A DNA stretch of 64,000 nucleotides, taken from the NCBI GenBank assembly GCA_028822585.1, contig JAPKDL010000006.1, positions 1 through 64,000 of the forward strand. The letters run 5' to 3'. Shown one piece after another: positions 21,894-53,916 of this stretch. This stretch comes from Alphaproteobacteria bacterium (lineage in GTDB: Bacteria; Pseudomonadota; Alphaproteobacteria; UBA8366; GCA-2717185). The notes under the pieces were generated by a model that ran no database searches, was not told the DNA's origin, and worked only from the letters and a program-made list of their open reading frames with translations. A program made the translations under genes and the position numbers. How positions within the stretch are numbered: the stretch's first letter is position 1; each line of letters starts with the position of its first letter.

Positions 21894-22421
21894 TCAAACG
21901 ACCCCGAGTAAAATGTCGACACTGGCCGCGACAGCCTTTGACGCTTCTTCGTTTAATTTTTCCAAGGTCGCACTGCTGACCGGGTGATCGATCACCACAA
22001 AAGGATACCCATCGGCTCCCAATACTCGAGCCATTAGTTCCGCTGCGCTCACGAATTTAGTCGTCATAATTCCAATGGAGGGAATTCCGTTCCGGTCGGC
22101 TTCCACTGCATCATGCAAACTGCACGACGAGCAACTGCCTCAATCGCCAAGTCCGGCAATAAGGGCATCCCATTGTTGCGCCTCTTCCACAATATCCGCA
22201 TCGGCAGGCGCGCTGTAATTCGATTTGATGCGGCGAATAACTCTCGCCACACCGTATTTTTCAACCAACTCCTTTTCCATCATGTCGAAAAAGGGTTTGG
22301 TGCTTTTCTTTCCGTTTGAGATAACGCCAATTGTCATCCCGTCGAGCGTTTTCAAGCGCGGCGCCAAGGCAAATTCACGCGCTTCGCCTTCGTGGGTTGG
22401 GTCGAGTATTTCGAGGCTCAT
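21894..22421 (-). CDS. UGSC-type selenoprotein (TGA at 22140-22142 read as selenocysteine)
   Basis: ORFs 22140..22421 and 21894..22118 are in one frame, separated only by TGA: ...QQWDALIAGLGD-U-GSCSSCSLHDAVEADRNGIPSIGIMTTKF...LLGVV*. Same architecture in the paralog at 53389..53916. Confidence 0.85.
22109..22129 (-). promoter_or_regulatory. Candidate bacterial SECIS hairpin (locus 1)
   Basis: Starts 11 nt after UGA: CGUCGUGCA-GUU-UGCAUGAUG, 9 bp (two G-U), 3-nt loop beginning with G at +20. Confidence 0.7.
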
Positions 22422-22526: not shown

Positions 22527-23606
22527 TTAGGGTTCACAGTCGATGCAGGCGCCAATGGCCATGGTCACCGCCTTACTCTTATGCCCAAGCCAAGGTGGAA
22601 TTACCGCGCCAAACCCACCGGCGGGGCCGCCCGCGGCGACTACCAACAGATGCTCCGGATCCGGCAACGCTGCATATTCATTATCGCCACGATGACCGAC
22701 GACAGCGCCTTTACCGCAATCGGCCCATTCCCGACGGAATATCCGTGCATTTTCAAAAACATATTTCTGTATATCAGCCTTGGACCAGCCAGCGTCCTTG
22801 AAATGCGTCCGTAGCTGAGGCGGAATGACAATGGCGTAGTTACCGGGCCAAATCGAATAGTGCCGCATGCTCGACTTTATTTCAGCCACAAAGGTGTCGA
22901 GGATTTCCGCCGGGTTGGTCGTCCATTCGTTCATTAATTGACGCGGCGCCCCCGCCGCCATTACCGTCACCGCCGACGCATGTTCGGGAACACCGCGTTC
23001 TTCAGCCAACGGCGGCCAGGATGAATTCGCCTCGTCTTCAGCTATGCAATAGCTAAGCTTACCCGGATGACCCAATGTGGAACGATCCACATCACCTGGT
23101 CGGGCGTCAAGAAGGTTGCACAGAATCAAGCGAATGGCACGGCCGATGACCGTGGTGGCGCGATCGCTGGATCCCAGCGCATTGAAAGTCCCGTCCATGC
23201 CCAGTTCATCGCGAACCGGACCATTAATAACGATAAGCACTGCGCAACCACCTGTGCTCGCCGTGGCACCGTGAAGCAAAAACGGTTCTTGAAGCATCGC
23301 AGTAAACGCCGCCACGACAACAGGGAAGTGCATGGGCAAACAGCCCGCCATGACGGCGTTAATAGCCAATTTTTCAGCGGTAATTGCACGCGCGCGCACC
23401 GTTTCCACGCCTACCAAATGATCGGAGGGCATCATAACCCAATCCAAACAGGCCTGAACTGCATTCGCCGTTGGCGGCACCACGGGCAGTCCGTCAGTCC
23501 ATTTTCGGCTGTGGTAAAACTCCTGCGCCGCCATCATGTCTTCGACATCGTAGCGTTTCGACATTAAGTTCATAGGGTCTTCCTTATTCCAACAAGGCTT
23601 TGCCAT
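22527..23606 (-). CDS. 'DGLP' family protein, uncharacterised; partner of UGSC selenoprotein
   Basis: WTDGLPVVPPT..., NAVMAGCLPMHFPVVVAAFTAML, DRATTVIGRAIRLILCNL.DARPGDVDRSTLGHPGKLSYCIAEDE shared with 52251..53324 and 51226..52278. Start may be MNLMSKRYD at 23573. Confidence 0.75.
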   Translation of the reverse strand: MAKPCWNKEDPMNLMSKRYDVEDMMAAQEFYHSRKWTDGLPVVPPTANAVQACLDWVMMPSDHLVGVETVRARAITAEKLAINAVMAGCLPMHFPVVVAAFTAMLQEPFLLHGATASTGGCAVLIVINGPVRDELGMDGTFNALGSSDRATTVIGRAIRLILCNLLDARPGDVDRSTLGHPGKLSYCIAEDEANSSWPPLAEERGVPEHASAVTVMAAGAPRQLMNEWTTNPAEILDTFVAEIKSSMRHYSIWPGNYAIVIPPQLRTHFKDAGWSKADIQKYVFENARIFRREWADCGKGAVVGHRGDNEYAALPDPEHLLVVAAGGPAGGFGAVIPPWLGHKSKAVTMAIGACIDCEP

Positions 23607-49219: not shown

Positions 49220-50320
49220 TTACGGGCTTGTAACCGTTCACGCCCCAGCTATCTCCAACTTTCTGCCCATTGGGCCCGTTCTGGTTGGCATGTTTCTCGG
49301 GTGGCGACCCCATCGCGCATCGGTCTGCCTGGCGCTTGGTGTATTCTTATTGGTGCATTTCACCATCAGCGCCATCACCGGATGGCCGCCAGCCAATGAC
49401 GCCTTTGGCCAAGTATTTTATCCCGCCGTTACCTTTCTCCTACCGGTCAATTTTATCATACTGACGTTTCTTGCGGATCAAGATTTTTTTCACGCCGGGG
49501 CTTATTGCGCATGTTCATCATTTTGGCGCGAACTGGAGCTATTTACTGGCTCACTTTATCCAATGGACCGGCAATTGGACACACCTACCACAGCCAACGT
49601 TAATCGTATTCACAATTTCGTTCGCCGCATTGATAGAGCGTTTATTTGTAACCACGTCAGCAGAACTTATCTGCGCCCTAACGGCCAACGCCGGAACCCG
49701 TCATTTCATCGCCAACCGTTTTGTCGTCGACGCATTTCTGACTGTCGCCGTGGTGACTTTGACCCTGGACGTTATCAAGGACGCCTATCAAACCTCATTC
49801 TTTAATAAGCTAACCCGAATCCCAGAGCGGCGCGCTTATGAGCGCCATGAAATAGTTCGAAAATTGATACGCTATCTCCATCTCTGATATAGATCACTGC
49901 AAAAAATTCAACGATCCGCACGGCCATGACACTCGCAATCAAGAGCAGAAAATACTGGCGACATGGTTGGCGCAGGCCAGCGGCGGCGGGACAGCCTATC
50001 GCTACGGTGGCGAAGAATTTACGATCCTTATACTCGGCCATGACATTGAACCCGCCTATGTTTACCTAGAAGAAAGCAGGCAACAGTTCGCGCAATCAAC
50101 ATTTCATATTCACGGCAGTGTGGGCCCTAAAAAGAAACCAAAAACAAGGCCGCTGGGATACGGCGCTCCGGTTTGTCGGTGACTATTCCAATTGGATTCG
50201 CCGAACCCCAAGAGCGCGGCGACAAACCCTCAACAATAATGATGACGACTGACAAGGCCCTGTACAGAGCAAAAAATGGCGGCAACAAAGTCTCTAAATA
50301 TGGCTTATCGCACGGCCTGA
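49220..50320 (+). pseudogene. Frameshifted membrane-anchored GGDEF (diguanylate cyclase) gene
   Basis: Hydrophobic N-terminal fragments, then ISDIDHCKKFNDPHGHDT...AQASGGGTAYRYGGEEFTILILG and VTIPIGFAEPQERGDKPSTIMMTTDKALYRAKNGGNKVSKY in different frames. Confidence 0.85.
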
Positions 50321-51222
50321 TGTATCCCCTGCGCCACCGTTTGGGCGTCGACCAATGCGTGAACAACCTGCCCGCCATATTGGGAACGGGTCGCACCAAT
50401 GGCATACAAACCGTTTTGATCCGTCTGCATATCGGCGCCCACGATCAAACCTCCGTAATCATCGCGCTTAGTCGTTTCTGGGGCGAGCGTGGTTTGCGGT
50501 GCTAGCCCAACAAACGGGAAGATGCCGTCAATCGCCATCGTTTCTTCGGCGTCCAACGACTGATCATACAACCGAACGGCGTCGACCCCATCGTCCCCGA
50601 TAATTTCTCGAACATCCGTATGCACGCGCAGGCGTACATTATTCTGACCCGTAACCTTGCCGACGAAACTCTGCCGCGCCCGCGGCGCCTGCCCCCGTAG
50701 AAGAATCGTGACATTTGCGCAGACTTCCGCCAGATGTAGCGCCTCTTGAAAGGCGGCATCCCCCCCGCCCACTACCACTACATCCTTGTCCCGATAAAGG
50801 CCGCCATCGCAGAACGCGCATTGGGAAACGCCTCGCCCCATCAACGCCGCCTCCCCTGCCACATCCAGATGGCGCAACTGCGCACCTGTCGCCAGGATGA
50901 CCCGCGGAACTATCACTTCCTCGTCACCAGACACGCGCCAATAATCACCGGCTGCAGTCAATTTGGCGACCGATCCCATTTGATAATCGACAGCCGCCTC
51001 CAGGGCTGCCCCCAGCATCGCGGTGACCAAATCGGCGCCAGCTTCGCCGTTATGGTTTGGGGGGCCATCTAGCGTACCGACGTTCGTGATCAATCCACCC
51101 AACATACCATCATCAAAAAGCGCCGTCTTCAAGCCAAGGCGCGCCACTTCTGTCGCGGCTGCAAGGCCCGCAACACCCGCGCCAATAACAGCAATCTGAT
51201 GGGTAAATTCAATTTTAGACAA
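50305..51222 (-). CDS. Thioredoxin reductase-like FAD/NAD(P) disulfide reductase
   Basis: AVIGAGVAGLAAATEVARLGLKTALFDD; GRGVSQCAFCDGGLYRDKDVVVVGGGDAAFQEALHLAEVCANVTILLRG (CxxC plus NAD(P) motif). Confidence 0.93.
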   Translation of the reverse strand: MSKIEFTHQIAVIGAGVAGLAAATEVARLGLKTALFDDGMLGGLITNVGTLDGPPNHNGEAGADLVTAMLGAALEAAVDYQMGSVAKLTAAGDYWRVSGDEEVIVPRVILATGAQLRHLDVAGEAALMGRGVSQCAFCDGGLYRDKDVVVVGGGDAAFQEALHLAEVCANVTILLRGQAPRARQSFVGKVTGQNNVRLRVHTDVREIIGDDGVDAVRLYDQSLDAEETMAIDGIFPFVGLAPQTTLAPETTKRDDYGGLIVGADMQTDQNGLYAIGATRSQYGGQVVHALVDAQTVAQGIHQAVR

Positions 51223-51225
51223 AGT

Positions 51226-52278
51226 TCAGCTCCGCAAATTTCGTATGGCCCTGGTGACCGACAGGACGCCACCGCCCCAAAGCGGCAGGTAGGTCATCTT
51301 GACCCCGGCGCCGCCAGTGATGATCGGGTGAATGTCCTCCGAACTGCGCGCAACCGGACGGTTTCTAGTGAAATCGGCGACCTTGGGCATCGAGACGCTG
51401 TCCGCGTTAAACAGGAAGTCTTGAACCCGCGCCAAATCCCATCCTCGATTTCGAATTCTTTCCGCCAGTTCCGGCGGCAACAGGAAAAACTGTTCCCCCG
51501 GTTCACGGTGGCGCCCGGCACTTGCGAGCGCGCCGCCTGTCGTGAGCGCGGCGGCCATGGCAGTTAGAACCGTTTCCGGCGTATCCGCATCATCGACCGG
51601 CAAGACCTCCACCGTTCCCGAAACCGCCAACACCGTCACCGCACTTTCGTCGGCGTTGAAGCCACGGCGCACCGCCAGAGACGGCGCCAACGCATCGACC
51701 CCTTCCGCGAAACAGAAAGTATATTTGCCCGGCTGTCCCATGGTCGCCATATCACCAACCAGCGCACGCGCGCCGCCAATATTGCGCATGACCAACGCGA
51801 TGGCGCGTCCCATCGTCGCATTGGCGCGGTTGCCTGGCCCTAACATATTCGTGCCAGAATTCATGCCTAGATCTTGCGCCAGCGGGCCATGCACGACCGT
51901 CGCAATGGCGGGCGTACCGGTTGTCGTTAGAACCCCCAACAGATTAAGTTTCGGCTCCAAACAGGCCTCGGCGGCTGTTAGCACGGCGGGCAATTCCGCC
52001 GGTCGACATCCAGCCAGCACGCAATTATACGCCACCGCCGCCGCCGTAAGATTACCAAACAACGGCGGAATCATGCCATAGGATTGCGCCGGATCGGCGA
52101 CCCCTTCCAGCATAGCCTCCAGCCGTTGATGCGTCGGCAAGACCATAGGCAAGCCATCATCTAGTTCGTGTTCCGCTAACACCGCCTGCGCCTCTTCCCA
52201 CAGCACAGACTCTGAAAATAACGGGCGCCCGTCTTTATCTTCCATAACTATCAGCGGCTCGGCAGCCGTTCCGAGCAC
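51226..52278 (-). CDS. 'DGLP' family protein, uncharacterised (paralog 2 at selenoprotein locus 2)
   Basis: ELDDGLPMVLPTHQRLEAML; NCVLAGCRPAELPAVLTAAEA; NMLGPGNRANATMGRAIALVMRNIGGARALVGDMATMGQPGKYTFCFAE. Confidence 0.75.
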   Translation of the reverse strand: MLGTAAEPLIVMEDKDGRPLFSESVLWEEAQAVLAEHELDDGLPMVLPTHQRLEAMLEGVADPAQSYGMIPPLFGNLTAAAVAYNCVLAGCRPAELPAVLTAAEACLEPKLNLLGVLTTTGTPAIATVVHGPLAQDLGMNSGTNMLGPGNRANATMGRAIALVMRNIGGARALVGDMATMGQPGKYTFCFAEGVDALAPSLAVRRGFNADESAVTVLAVSGTVEVLPVDDADTPETVLTAMAAALTTGGALASAGRHREPGEQFFLLPPELAERIRNRGWDLARVQDFLFNADSVSMPKVADFTRNRPVARSSEDIHPIITGGAGVKMTYLPLWGGGVLSVTRAIRNLRS

Positions 52279-53324
52279 ACCTCGGTAAAGCCAAACGTGG
52301 GAATAAATGCTGAGTGTTTACCGGGGCCACCGGCCACAAAAATTTGTATGTCATCCGGGGACCGACCCATATGGAAATGATCATTCACAATGACTTGATC
52401 GCGCTCTGCGAAATTACTTAGGTTTTCTTCGGAAACACGGGAGATATGAACCGCCGAAGCTTCATATAATTTTTCCTGCATATCCACGATGCTCCACCCG
52501 TCACGGAACAACGTCGCCGCGTGTTCCGGACCCAAGGCGATGAGATACGGCGCTGTACCATAAAGATTGTTTGACCCGATTTGCGCAACCGTGCCCGCAA
52601 TCGTCGTCAAAAGGCCTTCACCTGTCGTGCTGCCGTGGTCATTGATGTTATGCGGCGCTTCGCATGGCAGGGCGGTGACAACATTATCACTCACCTTAAA
52701 CCCTTGCCGGGCATGGTACGGCTCCCAGGGGCTTTCCTCTTCATTTTCACCAAAACAAAACGCGTATTTAGCGGGTGAACCCTGGGTGGATCGATCCATA
52801 ACACCAGGCTTAGCGCCGCCAACGTTCAACAACGTTAATTGCAGGGCGCGGCCAATCGTGGCGTTGGATCGATGCCCCTGACCAAAACAATTGCTACCGC
52901 AATTGATATCAAGGTCGAGCCGGATGGGTCCGTTCAACATCAACATGGGCGCACAAGGGTGCGTCGTCGCCAAGGTGCCGTGTAAATTATATTCAGGTTT
53001 CAGCACCGCACGTACAGCGGACACGACCACCGGAAAATATTCCGGACGACAACCCGCCATAACCGCATTCGCGGCGATACTCGACAGCGTCGGTAAAACG
53101 CGCCGCGGCGACATGGGAAGAAAGGGTTCGTTGTCGCCACGACAAATTTCAACGAAGCGCGCAACTTTTTCTTCTGTTGGCGCAACAAGCGGAAATCCAT
53201 CACTCCAGCCTTGTTCCAAGGCGTAGTCGTTCCATTCGTCGGAATCGAGCTCATCGAACTCAATCACTTCGCTGTCTTCTGCGTCTGACATTATTCCCCT
53301 CGCCTTAATCGTAAAACTACGCAA
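52251..53324 (-). CDS. 'DGLP' family protein, uncharacterised (paralog 1 at selenoprotein locus 2)
   Basis: GWSDGFPLVAPTEEKVARFVE; NAVMAGCRPEYFPVVVSAVRAVLKPEYNLHG; NCFGQGHRSNATIGRALQLTLLNVGGAKPGVMDRSTQGSPAKYAFCFGENEEESPWEPYHARQGF. Confidence 0.78.
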   Translation of the reverse strand: MRSFTIKARGIMSDAEDSEVIEFDELDSDEWNDYALEQGWSDGFPLVAPTEEKVARFVEICRGDNEPFLPMSPRRVLPTLSSIAANAVMAGCRPEYFPVVVSAVRAVLKPEYNLHGTLATTHPCAPMLMLNGPIRLDLDINCGSNCFGQGHRSNATIGRALQLTLLNVGGAKPGVMDRSTQGSPAKYAFCFGENEEESPWEPYHARQGFKVSDNVVTALPCEAPHNINDHGSTTGEGLLTTIAGTVAQIGSNNLYGTAPYLIALGPEHAATLFRDGWSIVDMQEKLYEASAVHISRVSEENLSNFAERDQVIVNDHFHMGRSPDDIQIFVAGGPGKHSAFIPTFGFTEVCSERLPSR

Positions 53325-53388: not shown

Positions 53389-53916
53389 TTAAACGCTAAC
53401 GGAGTCCTTCAAATTAGAAAATGCAGTACTGATACGGTCCGCCAGTTCCGCCTCGTTCAACCCCCCAACGGGATGCTTCACGATGAGCAATTTAGGCGAC
53501 GCTTTCCGCGCCTTAGCCTGCGCCTGGACAAGCGGCAGAAAGGTTTCAGTGATAACAATATAGGTTTCAACGCCGCGATTTTCGAGTTCGATACTGTCAT
53601 GGAAACTCCACGACGAGCACGACCCTCAATCAGCAAGTGCTAGTATAGCACCCTTGTAATTCGCCGCGAGCTTATCGATCAATTCAGGCGGCGCGGGTTT
53701 CGCGGCGCTGTCCTTATACAAATAATCGATGTTATCCGTCGACCTAAACACGCCCATTTGTTTACGCACGCCATCCAATAGTTCTTGAGCGTTGGGTTTT
53801 GAATTTGAAACGATCGCAATGGGGTCCTTCGCCCAATCGACTGAAAGTGTCTTTTCCACATCGCCTGGGCCGCCAGACTCATTCTGTAGGCCAAACGATG
53901 GATTAACGATCCGCAT
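53389..53916 (-). CDS. UGSC-type selenoprotein (TGA at 53626-53628 read as selenocysteine)
   Basis: MRIVNPSFGLQNE...NYKGAILALAD-U-GSCSSWSFHDSIELENRGVETYIVITETFLPLVQAQAKARKASPKLLIVKHPVGGLNEAELADRISTAFSNLKDSVSV*. The frame after TGA is absent from the ORF track because it has no ATG. AAGGAGG before ATG at 53916. Confidence 0.85.
53596..53614 (-). promoter_or_regulatory. Candidate bacterial SECIS hairpin (locus 2)
   Basis: GUCGUGGA-GUU-UCCAUGAC, 8 bp (one G-U), GUU loop starting at +20 after UGA, same position as locus 1. Confidence 0.7.

Follow-up and report, generated by a model that had tools for sequence, protein, structure and literature searches.

In the selenoproteins of glycine and proline reductase, the selenol attacks the bound substrate and is reset through thiols. 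These enzymes belong to amino-acid-fermenting anaerobes, and their Sec proteins GrdB and PrdB work with GrdE and PrdA, which form a pyruvoyl group from Cys (PMC3091704). During glycine reduction the electrons pass from NADPH via thioredoxin reductase (TrxR) and thioredoxin (Trx) to GrdA and on to GrdB (PMC3091704). A GrdB-like pair has also been proposed to cleave the C-F bond of fluoroacetate (PMC10838667). This farB/farE operon of Cloacibacillus resembles the system treated here in that, on genomic and expression evidence, a GrdB-like Sec protein was recruited for the reductive cleavage of a non-amino-acid substrate; however, it is built of GrdB and GrdE homologues, and no member of the DGLP family discussed below is described in it. 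For the UGSC family of selenoproteins (NF041046 / PF24696), descriptions so far give neither a function nor a partner of its own. In aquatic metagenomes the family is one of the more abundant among selenoproteins and, to our knowledge, its function has gone unassigned for well over a decade.

Gene order and selenocysteine coding in the window

The window, the whole stretch of 64,000 nucleotides of alphaproteobacterial DNA that was analysed, carries UGSC genes next to DGLP genes at two places:

53389-53916, minus strand: UGSC selenoprotein of 175 aa with one in-frame TGA (Sec), directly upstream of DGLP-1
53626-53628, minus strand: Sec codon TGA (AD-U-GSC)
53579-53628, minus strand: bSECIS-like hairpin starting at the UGA (MFE -20.7 kcal/mol; z -4.08 against shuffles)
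52251-53291, minus strand: DGLP-1, putative alpha subfamily, with both the AGC Cys and the FC Cys
51226-52245, minus strand: DGLP-2, putative beta subfamily
50305-51222, minus strand: TrxR-like FAD/NAD(P) protein with a CAFC motif, directly downstream of DGLP-2
22527-23606, minus strand: DGLP-3, the third window copy
21909-22421, minus strand: second UGSC selenoprotein, downstream of DGLP-3 (Sec codon 22140-22142; 3' end not fixed)

An earlier note on this DNA had described two tandem genes at 51226-53324, and both were found there on the minus strand, with stops at 52251 (DGLP-1) and 51226 (DGLP-2). They are ~30% identical to each other, as is each to the third copy, and a fourth DGLP follows just beyond the window edge (contig position 64938-65969). 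The common motifs that had been pointed out, DG(L/F)P, AGC, NAT and FC, are all present in both genes, as DGFPLVAPT / DGLPMVLPT, MAGCRPEYFPVV / LAGCRPAELPAV, GHRSNATIGRA / GNRANATMGRA and YAFCFGE / YTFCFAE, respectively. Whole-family profiles matched both genes with E-values of 1e-100 or better, and the matches are thus not due to chance. The reported 28-nt overlap, on the other hand, requires a DGLP-2 start at GTG 52278, where the sole purine-rich stretch lies 1 nt upstream; the in-frame ATG 52245, 5 nt past the DGLP-1 stop, is the preferred start, and with it the overlap is replaced by a 5-nt gap. Since the genes are close or overlapping with either start, the translational coupling proposed together with the overlap is still plausible. 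For DGLP-1, ATG 53291, which is preceded by GCGAGGGGAATA, is probably the start rather than TTG 53324. The likely operon order is UGSC, DGLP-1, DGLP-2 and TrxR-like gene, a larger unit than had been described.

The ATG of the UGSC gene at 53389-53916 comes after GAAGGAGG. This gene encodes Sec by TGA and has the hairpin listed above, and the decoding machinery is present in the source genome: SelB was detected at 437 bits and tRNA-Sec (anticodon TCA) at 70 bits. For the second UGSC, beside DGLP-3, the SECIS-like hairpin reached a z of -2.19. Both window copies carry the UGSC motif with TGA, and the first is a family member by Pfam (PF24696, E 4.7e-31, 108.6 bits, above the gathering cut-off of 25); its NF041046 score is 111 bits (E 3.7e-32), and both copies score under the equivalog cut-off of 125 bits. 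UGSC genes of Blastococcus and Geodermatophilus use TAG as their Sec codon (L027:3452-3454, L029:4717-4719), which matches the already published UAG-Sec tRNA system (PMC5330540). A UGSC from Arthrobacter (L204:8997-9812) has a C-terminal extension resembling, as judged by eye, a NifU-type domain.

DGLP as an unnamed family and partner of UGSC

The previous assignment of DGLP as a family of unknown function is borne out, as it has no match among family models or solved structures. Pfam and NCBIfam searches of a test set of 82 diverse members gave no consistent match, a PDB sequence search with the DGLP profile gave none, and annotated copies in RefSeq-derived plasmid records are labelled 'hypothetical protein'. 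The AlphaFold2 model of DGLP-1 was of high confidence (pLDDT 93.4, pTM 0.91), and a fold search with it returned no PDB chain at E 1e-3 and no match in a viral fold library. The top PDB match was the class I fumarase alpha subunit (7xky; E 3.6e-3, probability 0.82, TM ~0.3), which is treated as insignificant and finds no matching Fe-S cysteines in DGLP; MmgE/PrpD dehydratases and cysteine desulfidase were also returned, insignificantly, with TM-scores of ~0.35 or lower. These fold scores are too weak, and DGLP was rejected as a relative of fumarase, MmgE or desulfidase.

The genomic association of the two families is close. Among DGLP loci in GTDB genomes, 77 of 80 have a UGSC gene on the same strand at most 700 nt away, and one of the three exceptions (L024) ends at a contig edge. 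When the search was instead started from UGSC only, an adjacent or fused DGLP was present in 70/72 loci of the window's class and order. For other lineages the corresponding figure was 28 of 30 loci (25 genomes), a less independent set as each of these genomes had been picked because it holds a DGLP. Across 44 genomes of the window's order, both families occurred in the same 23 and neither in the remaining 21. DGLP is thus almost certainly a near-obligate partner of UGSC as judged from gene content and order, and it is the first clear partner for this selenoprotein family of so far unassigned function. Departures from the window layout were also seen: in two related genomes (L156, L157) one DGLP is followed by two tandem UGSC genes, the reverse of the window, and a UGAC-type selenoprotein gene (L102/L103; L182, L183) is without a DGLP in the surrounding 1.5 kb; the closest one is ~4-6 kb upstream.

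The two proteins also occur as a single chain. At least 27 fusion frames were found, with UGSC first in all of them, indicating that a single UGSC with a single DGLP forms the basic unit. Canonical fusions are present at L118, L119 and L155, with a single TGA in L155 and L118; the remainder, here called type II, include several with a UGxCxxxCG motif. The model of the L155 fusion forms one confident unit (pLDDT 94.2, pTM 0.93). In a 2008 metagenome paper, UGSC is noted as fused to a domain called 'Unknown_1' (PMC2398784), which may be DGLP; apart from that note, as far as the available text of the paper extends, no literature on UGSC partners was found. Adjacency, fusions and co-occurrence together lend strong support to the earlier proposal that DGLP is associated with the Sec centre.

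The same proposal had singled out the conserved cysteines of DGLP as candidate partners of Sec, and this part is only partly supported. As the 80 DGLP loci had been found by patterns that include both cysteines, conservation was recounted on 211 distinct sequences, including those found via UGSC. Most unfused DGLPs retain Cys92 and Cys190 (numbered on DGLP-1, counting from TTG 53324), with scattered losses, so that this wider alignment bears out their conservation in part. However, in the type-II fusions Cys190 is replaced by Val in 24/24 sequences and Cys92 by Gly in 13/24, which contradicts an essential role for either residue. Conversely, all 24 retain Asp42, Arg159 and Glu193. From this pattern of conservation, the DGLP cysteines are probably auxiliary. 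Fused UGSC-DGLP genes on Sporomusa and Vibrio plasmids (L202:7320-9044, L203:7374-9059) have DMGTS at the UGSC site while keeping both DGLP cysteines, and genes for aconitase X and DUF126 lie close by. The DMGTS sequence implies that redox catalysis may not be common to all members; as a hint to the substrate, aconitase X near two plasmid fusions was set aside because of the small number of cases.

Relation to selenoprotein B and the proposed reductase

Profile comparison identified UGSC as a distant homologue of selenoprotein B (GrdB/PrdB). The model for glycine-reductase selenoprotein B (TIGR01917) matched 16 of 30 UGSC proteins, with a best E of 1.1e-6, and matches to the GrdF, GrdH and PrdB models were also obtained, the last at 12 bits against an equivalog cut-off of 300. 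With GrdB/F/H and PrdB, UGSC thus has in common a homologous Sec domain and the UxxC motif, and TrxR or Trx genes lie in some UGSC-DGLP operons. The systems differ in the partner, which is GrdE or PrdA for GrdB/PrdB and DGLP, with no pyruvoyl proprotein seen, for UGSC. They also differ in distribution, as UGSC-DGLP occurs in many lineages including haloarchaea, among them Halalkalicoccus jeotgali (L200), whose UGSC is of the Cys type.

Starting from the observed gene partnership and fusions, the Sec coding, the homology to GrdB and the TrxR linkage of the tandem class, we infer a physical complex with a substrate site, a chemistry and an electron path as follows. On balance, and by analogy, UGSC-DGLP is probably a Sec-dependent reductase that resembles GrdB/PrdB in its chemistry, with DGLP as substrate-binding partner. 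UGSC, a small protein of the alpha/beta type akin to the domain that bears the Sec in selenoprotein B, would be the first component of a two-component enzyme, the Sec (or Cys) of its UxxC motif serving as nucleophile and redox centre, and DGLP would be the dedicated second component. A small organic substrate would be held and polarised by DGLP beside the Sec via the invariant Asp42, Arg159 and Glu193, with the two usual cysteines as auxiliary thiols. Attack of the selenol on the substrate would lead to reductive bond cleavage and leave a selenenyl-sulfide or disulfide, to be reset by thiol transfer from a flavoprotein of the thioredoxin reductase type. In the tandem class of the window, one such enzyme would comprise DGLP-1 as alpha and DGLP-2 as beta subunit, and the TrxR-like protein encoded downstream would serve as its reductase.

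A closer correspondence to the described enzymes can be envisaged, in which UGSC-DGLP is of the true glycine/proline-reductase type and DGLP, as a remote homologue of GrdE/PrdA, carries a pyruvoyl group formed from Cys. UGSC does relate to GrdB, and the cysteines of DGLP, the residue from which the pyruvoyl of GrdE/PrdA originates (PMC3091704), lie in conserved contexts. Still, none of the 82 DGLPs matched a GrdE or PrdA model from NCBIfam or Pfam at E 1, the candidate Cys is missing in half or more of the type-II fusions, and this reading is highly improbable; a search of the source genome with PF09338 found nothing, its control being equally empty. DGLP was hence discarded as a GrdE/PrdA homologue, and as no GrdE/PrdA-like pyruvoyl partner was found, substrate activation must differ from that in glycine and proline reductase. 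Alternatively, UGSC could act on its own as a Sec/Cys thiol oxidoreductase or peroxidase, and DGLP could be the protein that it acts on, or a scaffold for it. In favour of this are the UxxC motif, which is typical of redox proteins, the two mostly conserved cysteines of DGLP, and the Trx-like fold assumed for UGSC in the 2008 paper (PMC2398784). We nevertheless consider this unlikely: in a fold search the UGSC part of the fusion model weakly resembled flavodoxin-like and Rossmann-type domains, none significantly, and not thioredoxin, a fold that was rejected on this basis; Cys190 of DGLP is gone in all type-II fusions that retain Sec; and more than 100 paralogs beside solute-binding proteins are unexpected for a pure redox relay.

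The catalytic role could also rest with DGLP, in a pair of the lyase or hydratase type where UGSC is regulatory or structural and its Sec/Cys acts as a ligand or thiol switch. The fumarase match and the insignificant ones to MmgE/PrpD dehydratases and cysteine desulfidase point in this direction, as do the Sporomusa and Vibrio fusions, in which the UGSC site is without Sec/Cys and which have aconitase X genes nearby. However, the TM-scores are low, and with fewer than three conserved Cys, DGLP has no fumarase-type Fe-S site. Moreover, throughout the phyla almost every UGSC copy retains the costly Sec, which suggests selenium chemistry, and a lyase or hydratase is accordingly rather improbable.

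Returning to the Sec-dependent reductase, the TrxR-like protein at 50305-51222 is the likely electron donor, as suggested by its family and position. It matched TIGR01292 (E 9.5e-63, 212 bits, under the cut-off of 343) as well as PF07992. A TrxR-like gene within 1.5 kb was found at 13/20 tandem-DGLP loci as compared to 0/60 single-DGLP loci (Fisher p 2.5e-10, uncorrected for relatedness). Plasmid operons with the order trxB-trxA-DGLP-UGSC (Arthrobacter) and DGLP-UGSC-trxB (Roseovarius) were also observed.

The earlier suggestion of a DGLP-1/DGLP-2 heterodimer was considered in the light of the family tree. Downstream tandem copies from Alphaproteobacteria and Actinobacteria fall, in 23 of 24 cases, into one clade of 26 with a support of only 0.59; alpha and beta thus look like old, co-inherited subfamilies, and such a pair makes a heterodimer plausible. 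On the other side, most DGLPs are single copies paired with UGSC, close relatives have UGSC followed by three DGLPs in a row, and the fusions join one UGSC to one DGLP. We give the alpha/beta heterodimer an even chance.

Neighbouring genes and expansion in Chloroflexi

TctC binding proteins made up 15 of 126 neighbours of DGLP copies, and SBP_bac_5 accounted for 17/51 in a Chloroflexi genome with an expanded family. The remaining neighbours are catabolic genes of varied kinds, including TauD, CoA-transferase III, SDR and amidase. This combination of importer binding proteins and varied catabolic genes suggests many substrates, perhaps one per DGLP-UGSC paralog, and the neighbours are too diverse for one common substrate to be read from them. 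Near triple-DGLP clusters of two related genomes, a proline racemase-family gene lies on the opposite strand (L216:3675-4703, L217:17140-18171); these cases are too few for proline to be taken as the substrate.

The largest expansion was seen in the 5.0 Mb Chloroflexi genome NC_groundwater_644 (L073, L282-L287; G309, JACPQD01), where UGSC matched at least 101 times and DGLP at least 150 times; these counts are lower bounds, not all candidates having been scored, and the copy number in this metagenome assembly awaits confirmation. Nearly all of the UGSC matches listed have one TGA, and several UGSC-DGLP pairs lie along single contigs. The copies are distinct: 31 sampled UGSC had a nearest-neighbour identity of at most 80%, with UGxC in 31/31, and 34 sampled DGLPs an identity of at most 86%. 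SelB was detected (353 bits), and the search for tRNA-Sec gave none over threshold. The largest bacterial selenoproteomes comprise 57 and 63 genes according to a 2026 review (PMC13188914), and the UGSC count of this genome, as obtained from the metagenome assembly, exceeds any reported one.

It is possible, though rather doubtful, that UGSC-DGLP constitutes a large superfamily of Sec-dependent reductases in bacteria and haloarchaea, with a partner fold unmatched in the PDB and one paralog per imported substrate. The more than 100 Sec genes in one Chloroflexi genome would then be an expansion in the style of the reductive dehalogenases, and the selenol would cleave C-X bonds (X = N, S, O or halogen). 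Should the reading as a reductase be correct, Sec-dependent reductive cleavage would reach well past the clostridial fermenters and have Cys variants in haloarchaea, and the selenoprotein investment of some groundwater Chloroflexi would be of a size not recognised before. The obligate partner, the natural one-chain fusion and the linked importer and reductase genes open the function of UGSC to direct experiment, the fusion being suited to expression and crystallography. In a further genome with 24 UGSC matches (L031, G314), the search for SelB gave nothing above the cut-off although its UGSC genes carry in-frame TGA; two other genomes with expansions, L070 (G316) and L050 (G300), hold 33 and 12 UGSC matches, respectively.
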